In this document: piece by piece, positions 4,608-28,943 of the stretch | How the letters are laid out: every line of letters starts with the position of its first letter | Position numbering within the stretch: the stretch's first letter is position 1 | NCBI RefSeq assembly: GCF_937951745.1 | Contig: NZ_CALFBQ010000026.1 | Span: forward strand, 1 to 35,223 | Reading direction: 5' to 3' | From: an uncultured Chloroflexus sp. | GTDB lineage: Bacteria; Chloroflexota; Chloroflexia; Chloroflexales; Chloroflexaceae | Length of the DNA stretch: 35,223 bases | Position numbers and translations under genes: made by a program | The notes under the pieces: generated by a model | Told to the model about the DNA's origin: nothing | The model's input: the letters and a program-made list of their open reading frames with translations, nothing else | The model's database searches: none

Positions 4608-4984
4608 AACGTTTGGCAAGTTGCGACGGTTTCATATATAGAGGGCCTGTTTGTAGTGTACCACGGATCGGCTGGCGGAAACGAGCCAAACTAATGGAAC
4701 GGAGGACATGGATCGCGCCAGCGTTTGTCATTGCGAGGGCACGTAAGCGCCCAAAGCATTTCCCCCTTCAACGTTAACGAATATCCTCCGCTTTTGGGGA
4801 GATTGCTTCGCCGCCTCCGGCGGCTCGCAATGACACCGACGCGCTCACCAATGGAAGATCTTCCTCTCACTCCAACGGGGGAAGGTTGGGGGTAAGCACC
4901 GTCAGCCCTTCCCGCCGGGAGAGGGAGAAAGCGCCCCTCCATTAGAGGAGGCTACCTCCGCGATGTACTCAACCGGAGATCGCT
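4608..4984. other. Intergenic region with dispersed repeats
   Basis: 377 bases between divergently transcribed genes, without a credible gene. It holds a MITE-like repeat (4726-4835), then a short segment around 4856-4935 of the type 'CTCACTCCAACGGGGGAAG ... CCCGCCGGGAGAGGG', a low-complexity inverted motif that recurs near 17130-17165. Promoters for the two flanking genes must lie here but I cannot assign them. Confidence 0.6.
4726..4835. repeat. MITE-like inverted-repeat element, copy 1
   Basis: 110 bp bounded by TGTCATTGCGAG (4726-4737) and its reverse complement CTCGCAATGACA (4824-4835), with an inner GGAGATTGCTTCG just before the right end. Related copies lie at 19576-19697 and 34800-34932, and a left half-copy at 17194. 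It has no coding capacity. Confidence 0.8.
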
Positions 4985-23996: not shown

Positions 23997-24025
23997 TTGC
24001 ACCCCCGCGCCGGCTGTGGTATACT
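23997..24025 (+). promoter_or_regulatory. Promoter of the arginine-rich leader and arg gene cluster
   Basis: TTGCAC (23997-24002), a spacer of exactly 17 bp, and TATACT (24020-24025) form a good sigma-70-type promoter. Transcription would begin near 24032, 20-25 nt before the leader ATG. Confidence 0.65.
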
Positions 24026-24054
24026 GCGTGAGCACAGTTGCAGGCAAGGAGACG

Positions 24055-24162
24055 ATGATCGCAATGGATATCATGGTTCAGCCCAACACCTACCGCAGCC
24101 ACCCGGTGGTTCATCGTCGCCGTCGTCGTTGCCGTCGCCAGCTCATTGCGCGAACTGGCTAG
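24055..24162 (+). CDS. Arginine-rich leader peptide (35 residues), candidate attenuator peptide
   Basis: A 35-codon frame from ATG (24055) to TAG (24160-24162), preceded by AAGGAG (24046-24051) with a short 3-nt spacer; in-frame ATGs at codons 4 and 7 are alternative starts. Nine codons specify Arg, seven of them among the eight codons 21-28 (24115-24138), interrupted only by one Cys. All nine are CGN, mostly CGT/CGC, read by one tRNA in most bacteria. No known protein domain. A promoter lies directly upstream; a terminator hairpin with competing structures follows directly. Downstream on the same strand come a phosphatase, argJ, a hypothetical gene, argH and argA. The design matches leader peptides such as HisL, with arginine as the monitored amino acid. 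Function is inferred from architecture; an accidental CGTCGC-rich stretch is the alternative. Confidence 0.6.
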   Translation: MIAMDIMVQPNTYRSHPVVHRRRRRCRRQLIARTG

Positions 24163-24229
24163 CCGCGCCTGCACTTCTGTACGAGATATTCTCAGGCCAG
24201 CACTGCCAGCGCGCAGGCTGGCTTCTTCT
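24148..24229 (+). promoter_or_regulatory. Candidate arginine attenuator: protector, antiterminator and terminator
   Basis: Terminator: GCCAGC-A-CTGC (24196-24206) pairs with GCAG-GCTGGC (24213-24222), 10 bp with one bulged A and a 6-nt loop, followed by TTCTTCT (24223-24229). Antiterminator: GCCTG (24167-24171) can pair with CAGGC (24193-24197), and CTGGC (24155-24159) with GCCAG (24196-24200 or 24205-24209), taking the 5' arm of the terminator. Protector: GCGCG (24148-24152) can pair with CGCGC (24164-24168). A ribosome at the leader stop codon would cover 24155-24171 and let the terminator form; one stalled in the Arg run would leave it free. Read by eye, no energy calculation. Confidence 0.6.
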
Positions 24230-24260
24230 ATGTATTCGCATCAAGTCAGCGCAGGGAGTT

Positions 24261-24959
24261 ATGACGCACTTATATCTAATCCGTCACGGGGAAGCCGTCG
24301 CCAATATTCAGCCGATTGTGGCCGGGATGCGCGGCGATGCCGGATTGACGCCGCGCGGTATCACGCAAGCCGAACGATTGCGTGATCGTCTCGCCACCAG
24401 CGGCGAGATTAAGGCCGATGTCTTGATCTCATCGACCTTGCCGCGCGCCCGCCAGACTGCCGAGATTATCCAACCCGCGTTGGGCCTGCCGATTATCTTC
24501 GATGATGAAGTGCAAGAGCTGCGCGTCGGCGAGGCTGATGGCATGCCAAATCACGAGGCTTGGGCGCTGTTTGGAGTGCCTGATTTCGACCGCTACCCGC
24601 TGCGCCCGATCGCTCCCGGCGGCGAGAGCTGGGGTGATTTTACGCTGCGCGTGAGCCGCGCGCTTACTCGGATTACGTCCGAATATGAGGGCAAGACGAT
24701 TGTGGTAGTCTGTCACGGCGGTGTGATCGACTGCTCGTTCATTCACTTTTTCCGCATGCCGAGTCTGGTGGTGCCACCAACCGACTTTCATACCCGCAAC
24801 ACGAGCATCACGTGGTGGGAGCGGGTAGAACGGCGGAACCAACAGCTTTGGCGGCTTAATGCCTATAACGACATCGCTCATTTACAGGGGATCGGTGCGG
24901 TCGAGTCGGTACGCTGGGAAGATACCCACCCTGCCTCGCCAGTCCCAACTGAGGAGTAG
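24261..24959 (+). CDS. Histidine phosphatase (phosphoglycerate mutase-like) family protein
   Basis: 232 residues from the ATG at 24261; GGGAG is only 2-3 nt upstream, so translation initiation may be weak or coupled to structure. The catalytic motif LIRHGEAVAN is at residues 6-15, RARQTAEII near 60, and the second catalytic His in VVCHGGVID near 155. ITWWERVE and the acidic C-terminus follow. The family includes cofactor-dependent mutases and broad phosphatases; the length and motifs fit a phosphatase. It lies first in the arginine cluster and its stop is 6 nt before argJ, so it is almost certainly cotranscribed. A role in arginine metabolism is not known for this family. Confidence 0.9.
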   Translation: MTHLYLIRHGEAVANIQPIVAGMRGDAGLTPRGITQAERLRDRLATSGEIKADVLISSTLPRARQTAEIIQPALGLPIIFDDEVQELRVGEADGMPNHEAWALFGVPDFDRYPLRPIAPGGESWGDFTLRVSRALTRITSEYEGKTIVVVCHGGVIDCSFIHFFRMPSLVVPPTDFHTRNTSITWWERVERRNQQLWRLNAYNDIAHLQGIGAVESVRWEDTHPASPVPTEE

Positions 24960-24965
24960 CGCAGT

Positions 24966-26183
24966 ATGATCAGCTTTCTCGCCGATGGACACGTTGCAAG
25001 CCCGCGCGGCTGGCGCGCTGCGGTCGCTGCGTGCGGCATTAAGTACGCTCACCGCGACGATCTAGCGTTGGTGGTCAGCGATCGTCCGGCGACAGCAGCG
25101 GCGGCATTTACCACCAACGCCGTGAAAGCGGCCCCGGTGCTGTACGATATGGCGTTGATGGCCCAAGGCGGCGATTGGCGCGCGGTGGTCATTAACGCCG
25201 GCAATGCCAACGCTTGTACCGGCGCTGATGGCGATGCTGCTGCGGTCGCGATGGCCCGCGCCGTCGAGCAGGCCCTTGATCTGCCAGCCAATAGCGTCTT
25301 TGTCATGTCAACCGGCACCATCGGCGTGCCGATGCCGGTGGAAAAGATCACCCGCGGGATCGCCGAGGCTGCGACCCGCCTTAGTCCTGATCACGGCTTG
25401 GCCGCTGCCCGCGCGATTATGACCACCGATACCCGGCCCAAGCATTGCGCCGTCACAGTGACGTTGCCCGATGGGAACAGGATAACCATTGGCGGAATGG
25501 CCAAGGGCGCGGGGATGATTCACCCGAATATGGCGACCATGCTGGCCGTGGTGACAACCGACGCCGCGGTGCCGCGCGCGGTGCTTGACGCAGCGATGCG
25601 GCAGGCACTCGAGGTGAGCTTTAACAGTATCAGCGTCGATGGCGATACCAGCACCAACGACACGTTGCTGGTGATGGCCAATGGCGCAAGCGGCGCGCCG
25701 CCGATCACCGAGCTGGATTCACCTGCCGGAGCTGCCTTTGTGGCCGGCCTTACCACAGTTTGCCAGCACCTTGCCCACGCAATTGTGCGCGATGGCGAAG
25801 GTGCGACCCGTTTTGTCACCATCACCGTGCATGGCGCCGTCAACAACGCCGAGGCCAAGCAGGCGGCCATGACCATTGCTCGCTCGCCGCTGGTCAAGAC
25901 GGCACTGTTCGGGGCTGATCCGAACTGGGGACGGGTGTTGTGCGCGATTGGCTACTCTGGTGCAACGGTTGATCCTAACCGGGTCGTGCTGCACTTCGGC
26001 GGAATGCGGGTGCTGGAAAACGGTTTACCACTGCCGTTCGATGAGCAAGAGGCTCACAAACTGCTCGATGTGCCTGACATTACGATTGATGCCGATCTTG
26101 GTCTTGGCGAGGGAAGCGCCACAGTCTGGACGTGCGATTTTAGCTACGATTATGTGCGGATCAATGCTGAATACCGGACATAA
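24966..26183 (+). CDS. argJ: Glutamate/ornithine N-acetyltransferase ArgJ
   Basis: 405 residues. ArgJ transfers the acetyl group from N-acetylornithine to glutamate, recycling it in arginine synthesis; bifunctional forms also use acetyl-CoA. The precursor is cut into alpha and beta chains at the Thr in the motif KGAGMIHPNMATMLAVVTTD, which is intact here (near residue 185-205). Other conserved parts are AAFTTNAVKAAPV, VINAGNANACTG, MSTGTIGVPMP, SVDGDTSTNDT and DPNWGRVLCAIGYSGA. GAGGAG of the preceding stop region (GAGGAGTAG) acts as its ribosome binding site. Second gene of the cluster that also carries argH and argA downstream. Confidence 0.97.
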   Translation: MISFLADGHVASPRGWRAAVAACGIKYAHRDDLALVVSDRPATAAAAFTTNAVKAAPVLYDMALMAQGGDWRAVVINAGNANACTGADGDAAAVAMARAVEQALDLPANSVFVMSTGTIGVPMPVEKITRGIAEAATRLSPDHGLAAARAIMTTDTRPKHCAVTVTLPDGNRITIGGMAKGAGMIHPNMATMLAVVTTDAAVPRAVLDAAMRQALEVSFNSISVDGDTSTNDTLLVMANGASGAPPITELDSPAGAAFVAGLTTVCQHLAHAIVRDGEGATRFVTITVHGAVNNAEAKQAAMTIARSPLVKTALFGADPNWGRVLCAIGYSGATVDPNRVVLHFGGMRVLENGLPLPFDEQEAHKLLDVPDITIDADLGLGEGSATVWTCDFSYDYVRINAEYRT

Positions 26184-26227
26184 CCATCCCGTCTGGTATC
26201 GCGGAAGAGGGGCGGGGGGTGAGGGTT

Positions 26228-26971
26228 ATGGATCGCACTGCACGCCAACAACTTGCCCGTGAACTGTGCCAGCGCCTCGCTGCGCAGCCGGGAACGGTCG
26301 TGGTTGTGGCGGGAATGATCGAACCGCCTGCGCCACTGACCGATTTCGATCCGCTTGAGGTGCTGGCAGTGGTCGAGAGTACCGTCACGCGCCCACTTCA
26401 CAGCTTCATCGTGCAGAATCTGCCGGTGACGATACATACCATTGCCGCGGCGGAACTGGCGACGGTTGTGTACGCACCAGACCTGCGCTGGGCGCAGTGG
26501 CTAGGATGGTTGGCGACGTTGCAGCCGCTCATCGGCGATGGCCACAAGGTGAGCGAGTGGCTGGCACAGGCCGGCGCCTTGGCCGAGATCGATTTTCACC
26601 GCAGCATCTGGCCGCACCTGCCGCAACTAGTGTTCGGCGTTTACGGCGAACTACGTGCCGCCGCTGCTCGCCGCCACGAGCGGGAGGCCGTCTTGTTAGC
26701 GCCGGCATTGCTCGCCGAGCTACACACCGCGCTCTGCTTGATCAACCGGCGCTGGCCTACCCAGCGCCGCTTCGCCGGAATCATGGAAAGTTTTTCGTTT
26801 CCGTTGCAGCCCCGCGATTGGCCGCAACTAGCCGAAGAGCTGCTCAATGCTCATCAGCTCGACGAGATTGTGCGCGTGGCCGGCACACTCGTCGCCAACT
26901 ACTGGCAATTACTGGTACGGTGCAGTTTGACCATTGAATCTCATCAGACCACAGCAACCGCGCCTTTATGA
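26228..26971 (+). CDS. Hypothetical protein in the arg cluster, possible nucleotidyltransferase-like fold
   Basis: 247 residues from the ATG at 26228 (GTG at 26219 is an alternative). It begins with a helix and a strand (VVVVAGMIEP), then LTDFDPLEVLAVVES, which recalls the DxD-containing strand of nucleotidyltransferases of the aminoglycoside-resistance type; the GS motif before it is absent. The strand THTIA.. and VVYAPDLRWAQWLGWL follow as in that fold. The C-terminal half is helical. I cannot assign an activity. It lies between argJ (44 nt upstream) and argH (22 nt downstream) on the same strand, so it is part of the arginine operon. No membrane segment or signal. Confidence 0.65.
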   Translation: MDRTARQQLARELCQRLAAQPGTVVVVAGMIEPPAPLTDFDPLEVLAVVESTVTRPLHSFIVQNLPVTIHTIAAAELATVVYAPDLRWAQWLGWLATLQPLIGDGHKVSEWLAQAGALAEIDFHRSIWPHLPQLVFGVYGELRAAAARRHEREAVLLAPALLAELHTALCLINRRWPTQRRFAGIMESFSFPLQPRDWPQLAEELLNAHQLDEIVRVAGTLVANYWQLLVRCSLTIESHQTTATAPL

Positions 26972-26993: not shown

Positions 26994-28382
26994 ATGGAAC
27001 ACCGGCTTTGGGGGGGCAGATTTAGCGAACCAACGGCAGCCGAGATGCGCCGGTTCAATGACTCGTTCCGGTTTGACCGGCGACTGGCCGACGTTGATAT
27101 TACCGGCAGCATCGCGTGGGCCAGCGCCTTGGCGCAAGCCGGCCTGATCAGCGAGGCCGAGTATACCGAGCTAGTGCGCGGCTTAGAGCTGGTACGGGCC
27201 GAATTCGCCAATGGTACGTTCGTGGCAATCGAAAGTGACGAAGACATCCATACTGCCGTCGAACGCCGGTTACGCGAACTGATCGGCGATGCCGCGCTCA
27301 AATTACATACTGGCCGCTCGCGCAACGACCAAGTCGCCACCGATATGCGCCTCTACACGATCGGCATTGCCCGCCAGCTCGACCGGCGGCTACGCGATCT
27401 GCAATTGGCGCTGCTCGCGCAAGCCGAACAGCACGCCGATACCCTCATGCCGGGTTATACCCATCTGCAACGCGCCCAACCGATCACCTTCGGCCACTGG
27501 TGCTTGGCCTACGTCGAGATGTTTGCCCGCGACCGCAGCCGCTTGCGCGACGCAATTGCCCGGATGCGCGTGTTGCCACTAGGAGCGGGGGCGTTGGCCG
27601 GTAACTCGCTCGGCGTTGAGCGTGAGCGGCTGACCGAATTGCTCGACGAATTTGATGAATTGTCTGCCAACTCGCTCGATGCGGTCAGCGACCGCGACTT
27701 CGTGGCCGAGACGCTGTTCGCTGGCGCGCTGATCGGCGTTCACCTCAGCCGGCTGGCCGAAGATGTTATCCTCTATGCTAGCAGCGAATTTGGTTTTGTT
27801 GAACTCGCCGATGCCTACAGTACCGGCTCGAGTCTGATGCCGCAGAAGAAAAATCCTGATAGTATGGAATTGTTGCGCGGCAAGAGCGGGCGATTGCTGG
27901 GCAATCTGGTGGCGCTGCTAACCGTGCTGAAGGGCTTGCCGCTCACCTACAACAAAGATATGCAAGAGGACAAAGAGCCGCTCTTTGACAGTTTTGACAC
28001 GCTCGATCTCGGCTTGCAAGTAGCGGCGGCGGCCATTGCCACCATGACCGTGCGCCGTGAGCGGATGGCTGCCGCACTCGATGATGCGATGCTGGCCACC
28101 GATTTGGCCGACGAACTGGTGCGGCGCGGCGTGCCATTCCGCGTCGCCCACGGCAAAGCCGGTCAACTCGTGCAGCGGGCAATGGCGCTGGGCATTAGCC
28201 TGCGCCATCTGCCGCTGAGCGAGTATCAGGCGATTGAGCCAAGCCTTGATGCGAGCATCTATGCCGTGTTCGATATGGCGCGCAGCGTCGCCCAAAAGGC
28301 CAGCTATGGCGGCACCGCGCCGCAACGAGTCCGTGAGCAATGCGCCCGCTGGCACGAGATCTTAGAGGAAGAAGACGAGTAG
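26994..28382 (+). CDS. argH: Argininosuccinate lyase
   Basis: 462 residues from the ATG at 26994, with GGAGGAG 8 nt upstream; the usual ArgH length. The enzyme splits argininosuccinate into arginine and fumarate, the last step of arginine synthesis. Typical blocks are MEHRLWGGRFSEP at the N-terminus, DEDIHTAVERRL, LHTGRSRNDQVATDMRLY, PGYTHLQRAQP with the catalytic base region, and the superfamily signature GSSLMPQKKNPD near residue 280 with the active Ser. NKDMQEDKEPLFDS follows, all intact. Fourth gene of the cluster. A short GGGCACAGC/GCTGTGCCC palindrome begins within its stop codon and separates it from argA. Confidence 0.97.
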   Translation: MEHRLWGGRFSEPTAAEMRRFNDSFRFDRRLADVDITGSIAWASALAQAGLISEAEYTELVRGLELVRAEFANGTFVAIESDEDIHTAVERRLRELIGDAALKLHTGRSRNDQVATDMRLYTIGIARQLDRRLRDLQLALLAQAEQHADTLMPGYTHLQRAQPITFGHWCLAYVEMFARDRSRLRDAIARMRVLPLGAGALAGNSLGVERERLTELLDEFDELSANSLDAVSDRDFVAETLFAGALIGVHLSRLAEDVILYASSEFGFVELADAYSTGSSLMPQKKNPDSMELLRGKSGRLLGNLVALLTVLKGLPLTYNKDMQEDKEPLFDSFDTLDLGLQVAAAAIATMTVRRERMAAALDDAMLATDLADELVRRGVPFRVAHGKAGQLVQRAMALGISLRHLPLSEYQAIEPSLDASIYAVFDMARSVAQKASYGGTAPQRVREQCARWHEILEEEDE

Positions 28383-28421: not shown

Positions 28422-28943
28422 ATGACCATCCCGCTCTATACACCGCCAGTCAGCCTGCCGGCACTCCACATCCGGCCCGACGCCGCCGTATCGATTCGCC
28501 GCGCGCGGGTCAGCGATGTACCGCGGCTCTACGAGATCATCAACTACTATGCTGCTCGTGGCGACATGCTGCCTAAGACGCTCGATCAGCTCTACAACCG
28601 CGTGCGTAATTTCAATGTAGCCGAAGCCGATGGCGAAGTGATCGGCTGTGCCGCGTTGCATATCACGTGGGCCGATCTGGCTGAAGTGGTCAGCGTCGCC
28701 GTGCATCCCGCGTTTCAAGGTCGCGGCATTGGCCGCCGCCTCGTTGAACCGCTCTTCGCCGAGGCGATAGAGCTAGGTATTCCCACTCTCTTCACGCTAA
28801 CCTTGCAGGTCGGCTTCTTCAGCTCGCTTGGCTTCCGCGAAGTGCCCAAATTGCGCCTTCCGCACAAAATCTGGCAAGATTGCGCCACCTGTTTCAAACA
28901 GGATCGGTGCGATGAAATTGCGATGATCCGGCAGGTGCCGTAA
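28422..28943 (+). CDS. argA: Short GNAT-type N-acetylglutamate synthase
   Basis: 173 residues. The first step of arginine synthesis, acetyl-CoA plus glutamate to N-acetylglutamate. The sequence fits the short stand-alone GNAT NAGS type: IRRARVSDVPRLYEIINYYA, LPKTLDQLYNRVRNF, GCAALHITWADLAEV, VAVHPAFQGRGIGRRLVEPL (acetyl-CoA loop), FFSSLGFREV, LPHKIWQDCATCFKQDRCDE. The paired Cys motif near the C-terminus is typical of this group. It lies 39 nt after argH on the same strand. ArgJ can make the same intermediate by recycling, so ArgA supplies it anaplerotically. Arginine feedback inhibition is known for some members. No strong Shine-Dalgarno before the ATG. Confidence 0.92.
   Translation: MTIPLYTPPVSLPALHIRPDAAVSIRRARVSDVPRLYEIINYYAARGDMLPKTLDQLYNRVRNFNVAEADGEVIGCAALHITWADLAEVVSVAVHPAFQGRGIGRRLVEPLFAEAIELGIPTLFTLTLQVGFFSSLGFREVPKLRLPHKIWQDCATCFKQDRCDEIAMIRQVP

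Follow-up and report, generated by a model that had tools for sequence, protein, structure and literature searches.

A candidate arginine-sensing transcription attenuator in Chloroflexus and its lysine-codon counterpart

An arginine-codon leader upstream of arginine biosynthesis genes

The window, that is, the whole stretch of 35,223 nucleotides analysed here, carries on its forward strand a group of genes that includes argJ and argH, preceded by a promoter-like sequence and a short open reading frame rich in arginine codons:

23997-24025, + strand: sigma-70-like promoter TTGCAC-17 bp-TATACT (TTGCAC 23997-24002, TATACT 24020-24025)
24046-24051, + strand: Shine-Dalgarno-like AAGGAG, 3 nt upstream of the leader ATG
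24055-24162, + strand: leader peptide ORF, 35 codons, nine of them Arg; start ATG 24055-24057, stop TAG 24160-24162
24115-24138, + strand: putative Arg sensor, codons 21-28 (RRRRRCRR), with seven of the nine leader Arg codons
24261-24959, + strand: histidine phosphatase superfamily gene (PF00300), first of the operon
24966-26183, + strand: argJ (NF003802, 515 bits, above cut-off)
26219-26971, + strand: ORF of 250 aa between argJ and argH, with no NCBIfam or Pfam match
26994-28382, + strand: argH (TIGR00838, 581 bits, above cut-off)
28422-28943, + strand: argA-like N-acetyltransferase (N-acetyltransferase model NF005840, above cut-off)

The leader peptide reads MIAMDIMVQPNTYRSHPVVHRRRRRCRRQLIARTG, and its frame contains alternative in-frame ATGs at 24064 and 24073. 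All the parts on which the original prediction was built, namely the promoter, the AAGGAG and the 35-codon frame, in which seven of the nine Arg codons fall within codons 21-28, are present in the sequence; the -10 hexamer is good and the -35 weak (3/6 match to TTGACA). A scripted search finds a -10-like hexamer with a -35 matching at least 4/6 positions in 23 of the 33 aligned Arg leaders described below, a set that includes some doubtful cases and to which the window's own promoter does not belong. The locus thus has a short and apparently translatable leader ORF with clustered Arg codons, as would be expected of an attenuator.

The phosphatase gene starts about 30 nt beyond the predicted terminator. 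The three arginine biosynthesis genes that had been read downstream are recovered, argJ and argH above cut-off and the third as an argA-like gene by NF005840; the amino-acid N-acetyltransferase models score below their cut-offs for its product. Judged by these models, the genes downstream would make the very amino acid that the leader appears to sense.

Conservation of the leader and its genomic context

Searched at the DNA level, 15 of 61 genomes, among them that of the window, proved to contain the region. A covariance model (R1) built from 14 of the 16 loci from this search, with the terminator as its sole structure, matches 49 of the 82 genomes of the window's order at E <= 0.01, a count that includes lysine-codon elements (see below) and chance matches. 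By covariance model and inspection together, the Arg-type element is present in 37/82 genomes: 33/41 in the window's family, where the remaining 8/41 have no Arg-type match to the covariance model, 3/6 in a second family, 1/9 in a third and 0/26 in a fourth. In 36 of these 37 genomes argG or the phosphatase gene lies downstream, and in the remaining one the element lies 151 bases from the end of the contig. The leader, terminator, antiterminator and operon context, whose conservation the original prediction had left to comparison with relatives, are kept in most of the family and in parts of two others.

The gene that follows the leader differs between genera. The eight genomes of the window's genus have the leader before the phosphatase gene and argG at a separate locus; many other genera have argG as the first gene after the leader (its identity confirmed by NCBIfam in one relative, L061). 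Inspection by eye of six loci upstream of argG in the window's genus revealed no leader-stop-terminator plan, and Arg-rich frames occur in five of the six; among the covariance-model matches listed, none falls upstream of argG in this genus.

The Arg alignment (A2) comprises 33 rows. Four loci with argG downstream are outside it: L085 aligns poorly, L087 has a displaced leader stop, and the parser missed L075 and L076. A second copy in genome G001 is also outside; L093, for which an arginine gene was not found, is outside both the alignment and the Arg-type count. The last 17 codons of the aligned leaders hold on average 5.39 Arg codons in frame (minimum 3), against means of 1.0-1.45 in the other frames, so that the enrichment set as a test for orthologous leaders is found, and in one frame only. 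The N-terminal parts of the leaders diverge strongly among genera. Comparing leaders from many genomes with genes from one, the leader Arg codons are CGT 114, CGC 44, CGA 13, CGG 4 and AGG 3, and those of eight window genes CGC 101, CGG 55, CGT 25, CGA 13, AGG 3 and AGA 2.

Several loci depart from the common arrangement. In L087 (G059, third family), the usual TAG reads CAG, with a TGA upstream of it and argG downstream. Genome G001 has a second Arg leader and terminator (L046, G001:C607:5639-5875) about 1.8 kb upstream of the first copy, and the stretch after it looks like a fragment of a disrupted peptidase gene. The second-family leaders L079, L080 and L081, with their ATG 10 nt past the -10 box, may be leaderless. 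A further group of weak model matches (L104, L109-L113, L170 and L179) was judged to be due to chance; the best of these has an E-value of 9e-6, and E-values of about 1e-5 are therefore unsafe by themselves.

Alternative pairings and a predicted folding switch

Between the leader and the phosphatase gene lie a predicted intrinsic terminator and the strands of its competing pairings:

24137-24143, + strand: region 1 (24140-24143, conserved 1:2 strand; 24137-24141, used in the window's own fold)
24155-24171, + strand: region 2, antiterminator strand, overlapping the leader stop codon
24193-24209, + strand: region 3, partner of region 2 or 5' arm of the terminator
24194-24230, + strand: predicted intrinsic terminator, a 12-pair hairpin with one bulge followed by UUCUUCU

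The terminator arms pair 24194-24201 with 24217-24224 (8 bp) and, beyond one bulged base, 24203-24206 with 24213-24216 (4 bp). The fold of 24190-24230 has an energy of -19.9 kcal/mol (z -3.3), with 2/200 shuffles equally stable. Across the Arg alignment, 92.7% of cells are paired in the terminator and 14 are double-changed (0/500 shuffles as high, and likewise 0/500 when double changes are counted by pairs), although these shuffle controls, like those below, take no account of relatedness among rows. Compensatory changes in the hairpin, proposed as a check, are thus found.

The pairing of 24155-24171 with 24193-24209, already proposed from the single sequence, exists and is conserved: in its aligned form (24155-24159:24205-24209 plus 24167-24171:24193-24197, 5 bp + 5 bp), 92.1% of cells are paired over 32 distinct rows (0/500 shuffles). 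Double changes are confined to three cells (31/500 shuffles as high; 130/500 reach the count by pairs), and one pair is mismatched in 10/32 rows. Region 2 can also pair with the 3' arm of the terminator, in two versions with 90.2% and 96.0% of cells paired in the Arg set. This pairing is about as well conserved as that between regions 2 and 3, and either may dominate as the antiterminator. By conserved pairing and by folding, such an antiterminator is predicted to exclude the terminator.

For the 1:2 hairpin, the conserved register is 24140-24143:24157-24160, whose four pairs form in 32/32 distinct rows, with covariation not above shuffles; the best short fold of the window uses a shifted register, 24137-24141:24155-24159. 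The 1:2 pairing first put forward, 24148-24152:24164-24168, exists in the window and is rejected as the 1:2 hairpin, not being conserved across the 33 rows (62.4% of cells paired). Nor did the suggested check by minimum free energy of the whole leader region give a signal: the 231-nt fold has no unusual stability (z -0.78), and the single-sequence stability of the whole is therefore not taken as evidence.

The position of the ribosome was modelled in a sweep with an assumed footprint edge 15 nt ahead of the start of the P site. In the window, the probability of the terminator, P(terminator), is 0.00 with the A site at codons 24-30, 0.26 at codon 32, 0.91 at codon 33 and 0.97 at the stop. Folding predicts that transcription reads through while the A site is within the Arg cluster and terminates once it has reached about codon 33, and bears out in direction both halves of the expected switch, namely that a stalled ribosome leaves region 2 free and that one at the stop masks 24155-24171 and permits termination. 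Given the assumed 15-nt footprint, the stop codon appears to be so placed that a terminating ribosome would mask region 2. The ribosome-free P(terminator) varies with the limits of the fold, being 0.85 when 24032-24230 is folded and 0.01 for 24118-24230, so that the untranslated state may be either terminated or read through.

The same direction is seen in most relatives, as far as equilibrium folds can represent a process that is in reality kinetic. Over the 33 Arg rows, mean P(terminator) is 0.56 with a stalled ribosome and 0.85 with one at the stop; it is higher at the stop in 28/33 rows and does not rise in 5/33.

A sister element with lysine codons

The Arg model also picks up, with weaker scores, elements that carry Lys codons and precede homocitrate synthase and homoaconitase-like genes; their leaders typically end in K-Q-x-K-R-x-K-K-P-x-x-x-S-G-stop. 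The window's own genome has one such element, outside the window:

G000:C30:36217-36332: predicted Lys attenuator (L099), before homocitrate synthase and homoaconitase-like genes

The first gene after L099 encodes a homocitrate synthase of the LysS type, which scores above cut-off. The L099 leader mRNA may be leaderless, because its ATG lies 7 nt past the script-picked -10 hexamer.

The Lys alignment (A3) comprises 23 loci, later Lys-model matches being left out; a lysine gene is recognized by motif at 22 of them and by the start of the ORF at the 23rd (L107). The last 17 codons hold on average 3.83 Lys codons in frame (minimum 3) and 0.43-0.70 in the other frames. The terminator has 22 double-changed cells (0/500 shuffles; 363/500 by pairs). 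The antiterminator, counted in the majority-row register, which was adopted once a shifted version was seen to score higher, has 20 (0/500 shuffles; 91/500 by pairs). Counted in the register of L099, the Lys leader of the window's genome, the antiterminator failed, with 65.3% of cells paired. Mean P(terminator) over the 23 Lys rows is 0.74 stalled and 0.95 at the stop, and it is higher at the stop in 23/23; for the Lys element of the window's genome, it rounds to 1.0 in both states.

At E <= 0.001, a model built exclusively from Lys elements matches 72 of 158 genomes of the class; it also recovers Arg elements, the best being L073 of G008 (1.2e-11) and L079 of G049 (2.3e-9). That a Lys-only model finds Arg elements argues for common descent of the two, although convergence on the same pairing may be the alternative. 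The Arg/Lys pair can be regarded as a natural experiment on the change of what a regulatory RNA senses, because the replacement of codons on a common scaffold is testable by codon swaps.

Proposed mechanism and competing explanations

We consider it highly likely that the phosphatase-argJ-argH-argA-like operon is preceded by a classical ribosome-mediated transcription attenuator whose signal is charged Arg-tRNA. With sufficient arginine, the ribosome would reach the stop codon at 24160 and cover region 2 (24155-24171), the terminator hairpin (24194-24224) would form and transcription would end near 24225-24230. When Arg-tRNA is short, the ribosome would stall on codons 21-28 and region 2 would pair with region 3, or might instead pair with the 3' arm of the terminator once this is made; the terminator would then fail to form and the phosphatase-argJ-argH-argA-like operon would be transcribed. 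The leader and its switchable hairpin would very probably turn on the arginine genes only under arginine shortage. What the analysis shows is the arrangement of the parts, its conservation together with that of the alternative pairings, and a switch in computed folds. That the leader is translated, that transcription terminates and responds to arginine, and that the genes share one transcript is what we infer from an element that has most of the features of an attenuator that can be checked in a sequence. Its original reading as an Arg-sensing attenuator is supported, as a prediction of regulation, by conservation and folding.

The ribosome could instead be halted by its own product, a basic peptide that arrests in the exit tunnel and may bind free arginine as its ligand, rather than by scarcity of Arg-tRNA. 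Arg-rich stretches are able to slow ribosomes, and the peptide tail Q-P-x-x-R-S/P-G is partly conserved. Much of this tail can nevertheless be explained by RNA pairing, because CAG-CC and CTGGC-TAG are strands of the hairpin and the antiterminator; moreover, the number and positions of Arg codons vary from leader to leader, and the sister element preceding lysine genes carries Lys where the leader here carries Arg, thus tracking the end product. Nascent-peptide arrest is very improbable.

Equally, the hairpin might act on translation, hiding the start of the phosphatase gene mainly without terminating transcription, a possibility suggested by the interrupted U-tract of the window (TTCTTCT). 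Yet in several relatives at least four consecutive T follow the equivalent hairpin, and a motif of the first gene lies anywhere from 20 to 270 nt past the element, a range that makes masking of a start site ill-suited; we rate this explanation as very improbable.

It is extremely unlikely that the hairpin is an ordinary terminator or constitutive spacer, with Arg codons a by-product of CG-rich repeats. In the six frames of the window, runs of at least six Arg in eight codons occur 18 times, which makes the Arg run by itself modest evidence, and runs of at least seven occur at the leader site only, once per strand. The decisive evidence for the observation is conservation: the element is present in 37/82 genomes with Arg codons kept in one frame only, an equivalent element stands before both argG and phosphatase-argJ genes, and the alternative pairings come with it.

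Control by an arginine repressor or a metabolite-binding riboswitch, with the leader incidental, would accord with the common role of ArgR/AhrC as arginine regulator in bacteria and is scarcely to be credited here, as ArgR (PF01316) was not found in 82/82 genomes of the order, by a search positive in 9/14 control genomes, and within the window no Rfam model attains its gathering score. Attenuation by the arginine leader is a likely answer to how arginine synthesis is controlled in an order where ArgR was not found. Two Rfam matches in the leader, both far below gathering scores, are taken as chance.

Relation to known attenuators

Attenuation is an established mode of control for several amino acids, whereas the synthesis of arginine is usually assigned to ArgR; comparative work on attenuators in many phyla exists in subscription journals and may include an earlier prediction. 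The open-access literature searched yielded no account of an arginine-sensing attenuator with an intrinsic terminator that controls arginine biosynthesis; as far as that literature shows, what is new is the predicted sensing of arginine, the lineage in which it occurs and the common plan of an Arg and a Lys element. The classical ribosome-mediated attenuators are those of the his, trp, leu and thr operons of Proteobacteria, which we take to be a phylum other than that of the window. The window element resembles them in its leader peptide with tandem codons for the end product, in the biosynthetic operon downstream and in its mutually exclusive antiterminator and terminator; it differs in sensing, as predicted, arginine, in matching no Rfam family and in a region 2 that overlaps the leader stop codon. 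Closer to the Lys sister is a lysine leader-peptide attenuation system reportedly described by Tsubouchi and colleagues in 2005 for the homocitrate synthase cluster of Thermus thermophilus. Both appear to be leader-peptide control of alpha-aminoadipate lysine genes, a likeness of description rather than homology, and the Thermus leader concerns lysine, not arginine.

Other leaders share single features with that of the window. In Salmonella orf34-speF, a 34-codon upstream ORF senses arginine through ribosomes that pause on its consecutive Arg codons, much as proposed here for the Arg run of the window's short ORF; the Salmonella ORF controls ornithine decarboxylase via Rho, masking of the ribosome binding site and RNase G, and not arginine synthesis through an intrinsic terminator (PMC6386406). 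The carAB leader of Pseudomonas aeruginosa likewise encodes a leader peptide before a gene feeding arginine synthesis and has been suggested to act by attenuation, a resemblance of description, not homology; the paper has arginine acting at the transcriptional level and ties the possible attenuation to pyrimidines, not to arginine (PMC4997734). Attenuation of the his operon is described as the classical ribosome-mediated type (PMC9413887), and leader-peptide attenuation outside Proteobacteria is described for the His leaders of Firmicutes (PMC9413887, PMC2965389); the latter are, by description, comparable to the window element in lying outside Proteobacteria and differ from it in sensing histidine.

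Distribution in the wider phylum and beyond

A scan of 400 genomes of the phylum at E <= 1e-4 gives matches in 32 with the Arg model, 28 of them in the window's order, and in 38 with the Lys model, 31 of them in that order. A distant genome of the phylum carries the Arg leader RSRRYEPDKPSG and a hairpin before argC (L195, E 5e-5). When 80 ArgJ loci of named records were searched, the Arg model gave one weak match (E 0.23), L222, at 80-245 of JABFFZ010000069.1 (Chloroflexi bacterium CFX8). Here the Arg leader ..FIRRRRQTIGLDFEVA precedes argC and is followed by a 13-pair hairpin with a T-run, with argB-, argD-, argJ- and argH-like ORFs further on. A generic scan of the same 80 loci for Arg-rich ORFs before terminators returned 49 rows, four of which were inspected (L222, L210, L237 and L213): L222 and L210 precede argC, and L237 and L213 do not. 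We take most of the other 45 as chance.

We incline, with some reserve, towards a single ancestral attenuator scaffold, phylum-wide, that has been re-aimed among amino acids by exchange of its sensor codons for Arg, Lys and perhaps Gln, in lineages without detected ArgR. Under this reading, the leader would end in ..P-x-x-x-[S/P]-G-stop, its last bases and stop forming the antiterminator strand; the targets would be argG, argJ or argC operons for Arg, homocitrate synthase, homoaconitase and lysX for Lys, and perhaps LysE-type transporter genes for Gln.

Further observations concern individual loci. In Candidatus Gastranaerophilales, argC and an argJ-like ORF are preceded at L210 (about 4750-4912 of CALVAY010000008.1) by a short ORF, MNNKTQQFVIRRRLIRCESY, two strong hairpins and a T-run; this is possibly an independent Arg attenuator in another phylum. 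G068 has a second Lys-type element (L161), before lysX and an argC/lysY-like ORF, and the Lys-type leader KQQKRAKKPDNVSG of L180 lies immediately upstream of a LysE-type gene. Similar elements with Gln-containing leaders occur in other families (L173, L174, L177, L178, L190, L191, L192 and L194), such as QQQQSQNNLGLIDRRSG of L177, and precede LysE-type-transporter-like genes, PF01810 having been tested for L173, L177 and L190. In another family of the class, L149 and L150 are weak matches with the leaders RQRQQTRRSG and QRQRQQTGRSG. L169, a weak match, has a short ORF ending in GPDPRSD before gltX (glutamate-tRNA ligase).
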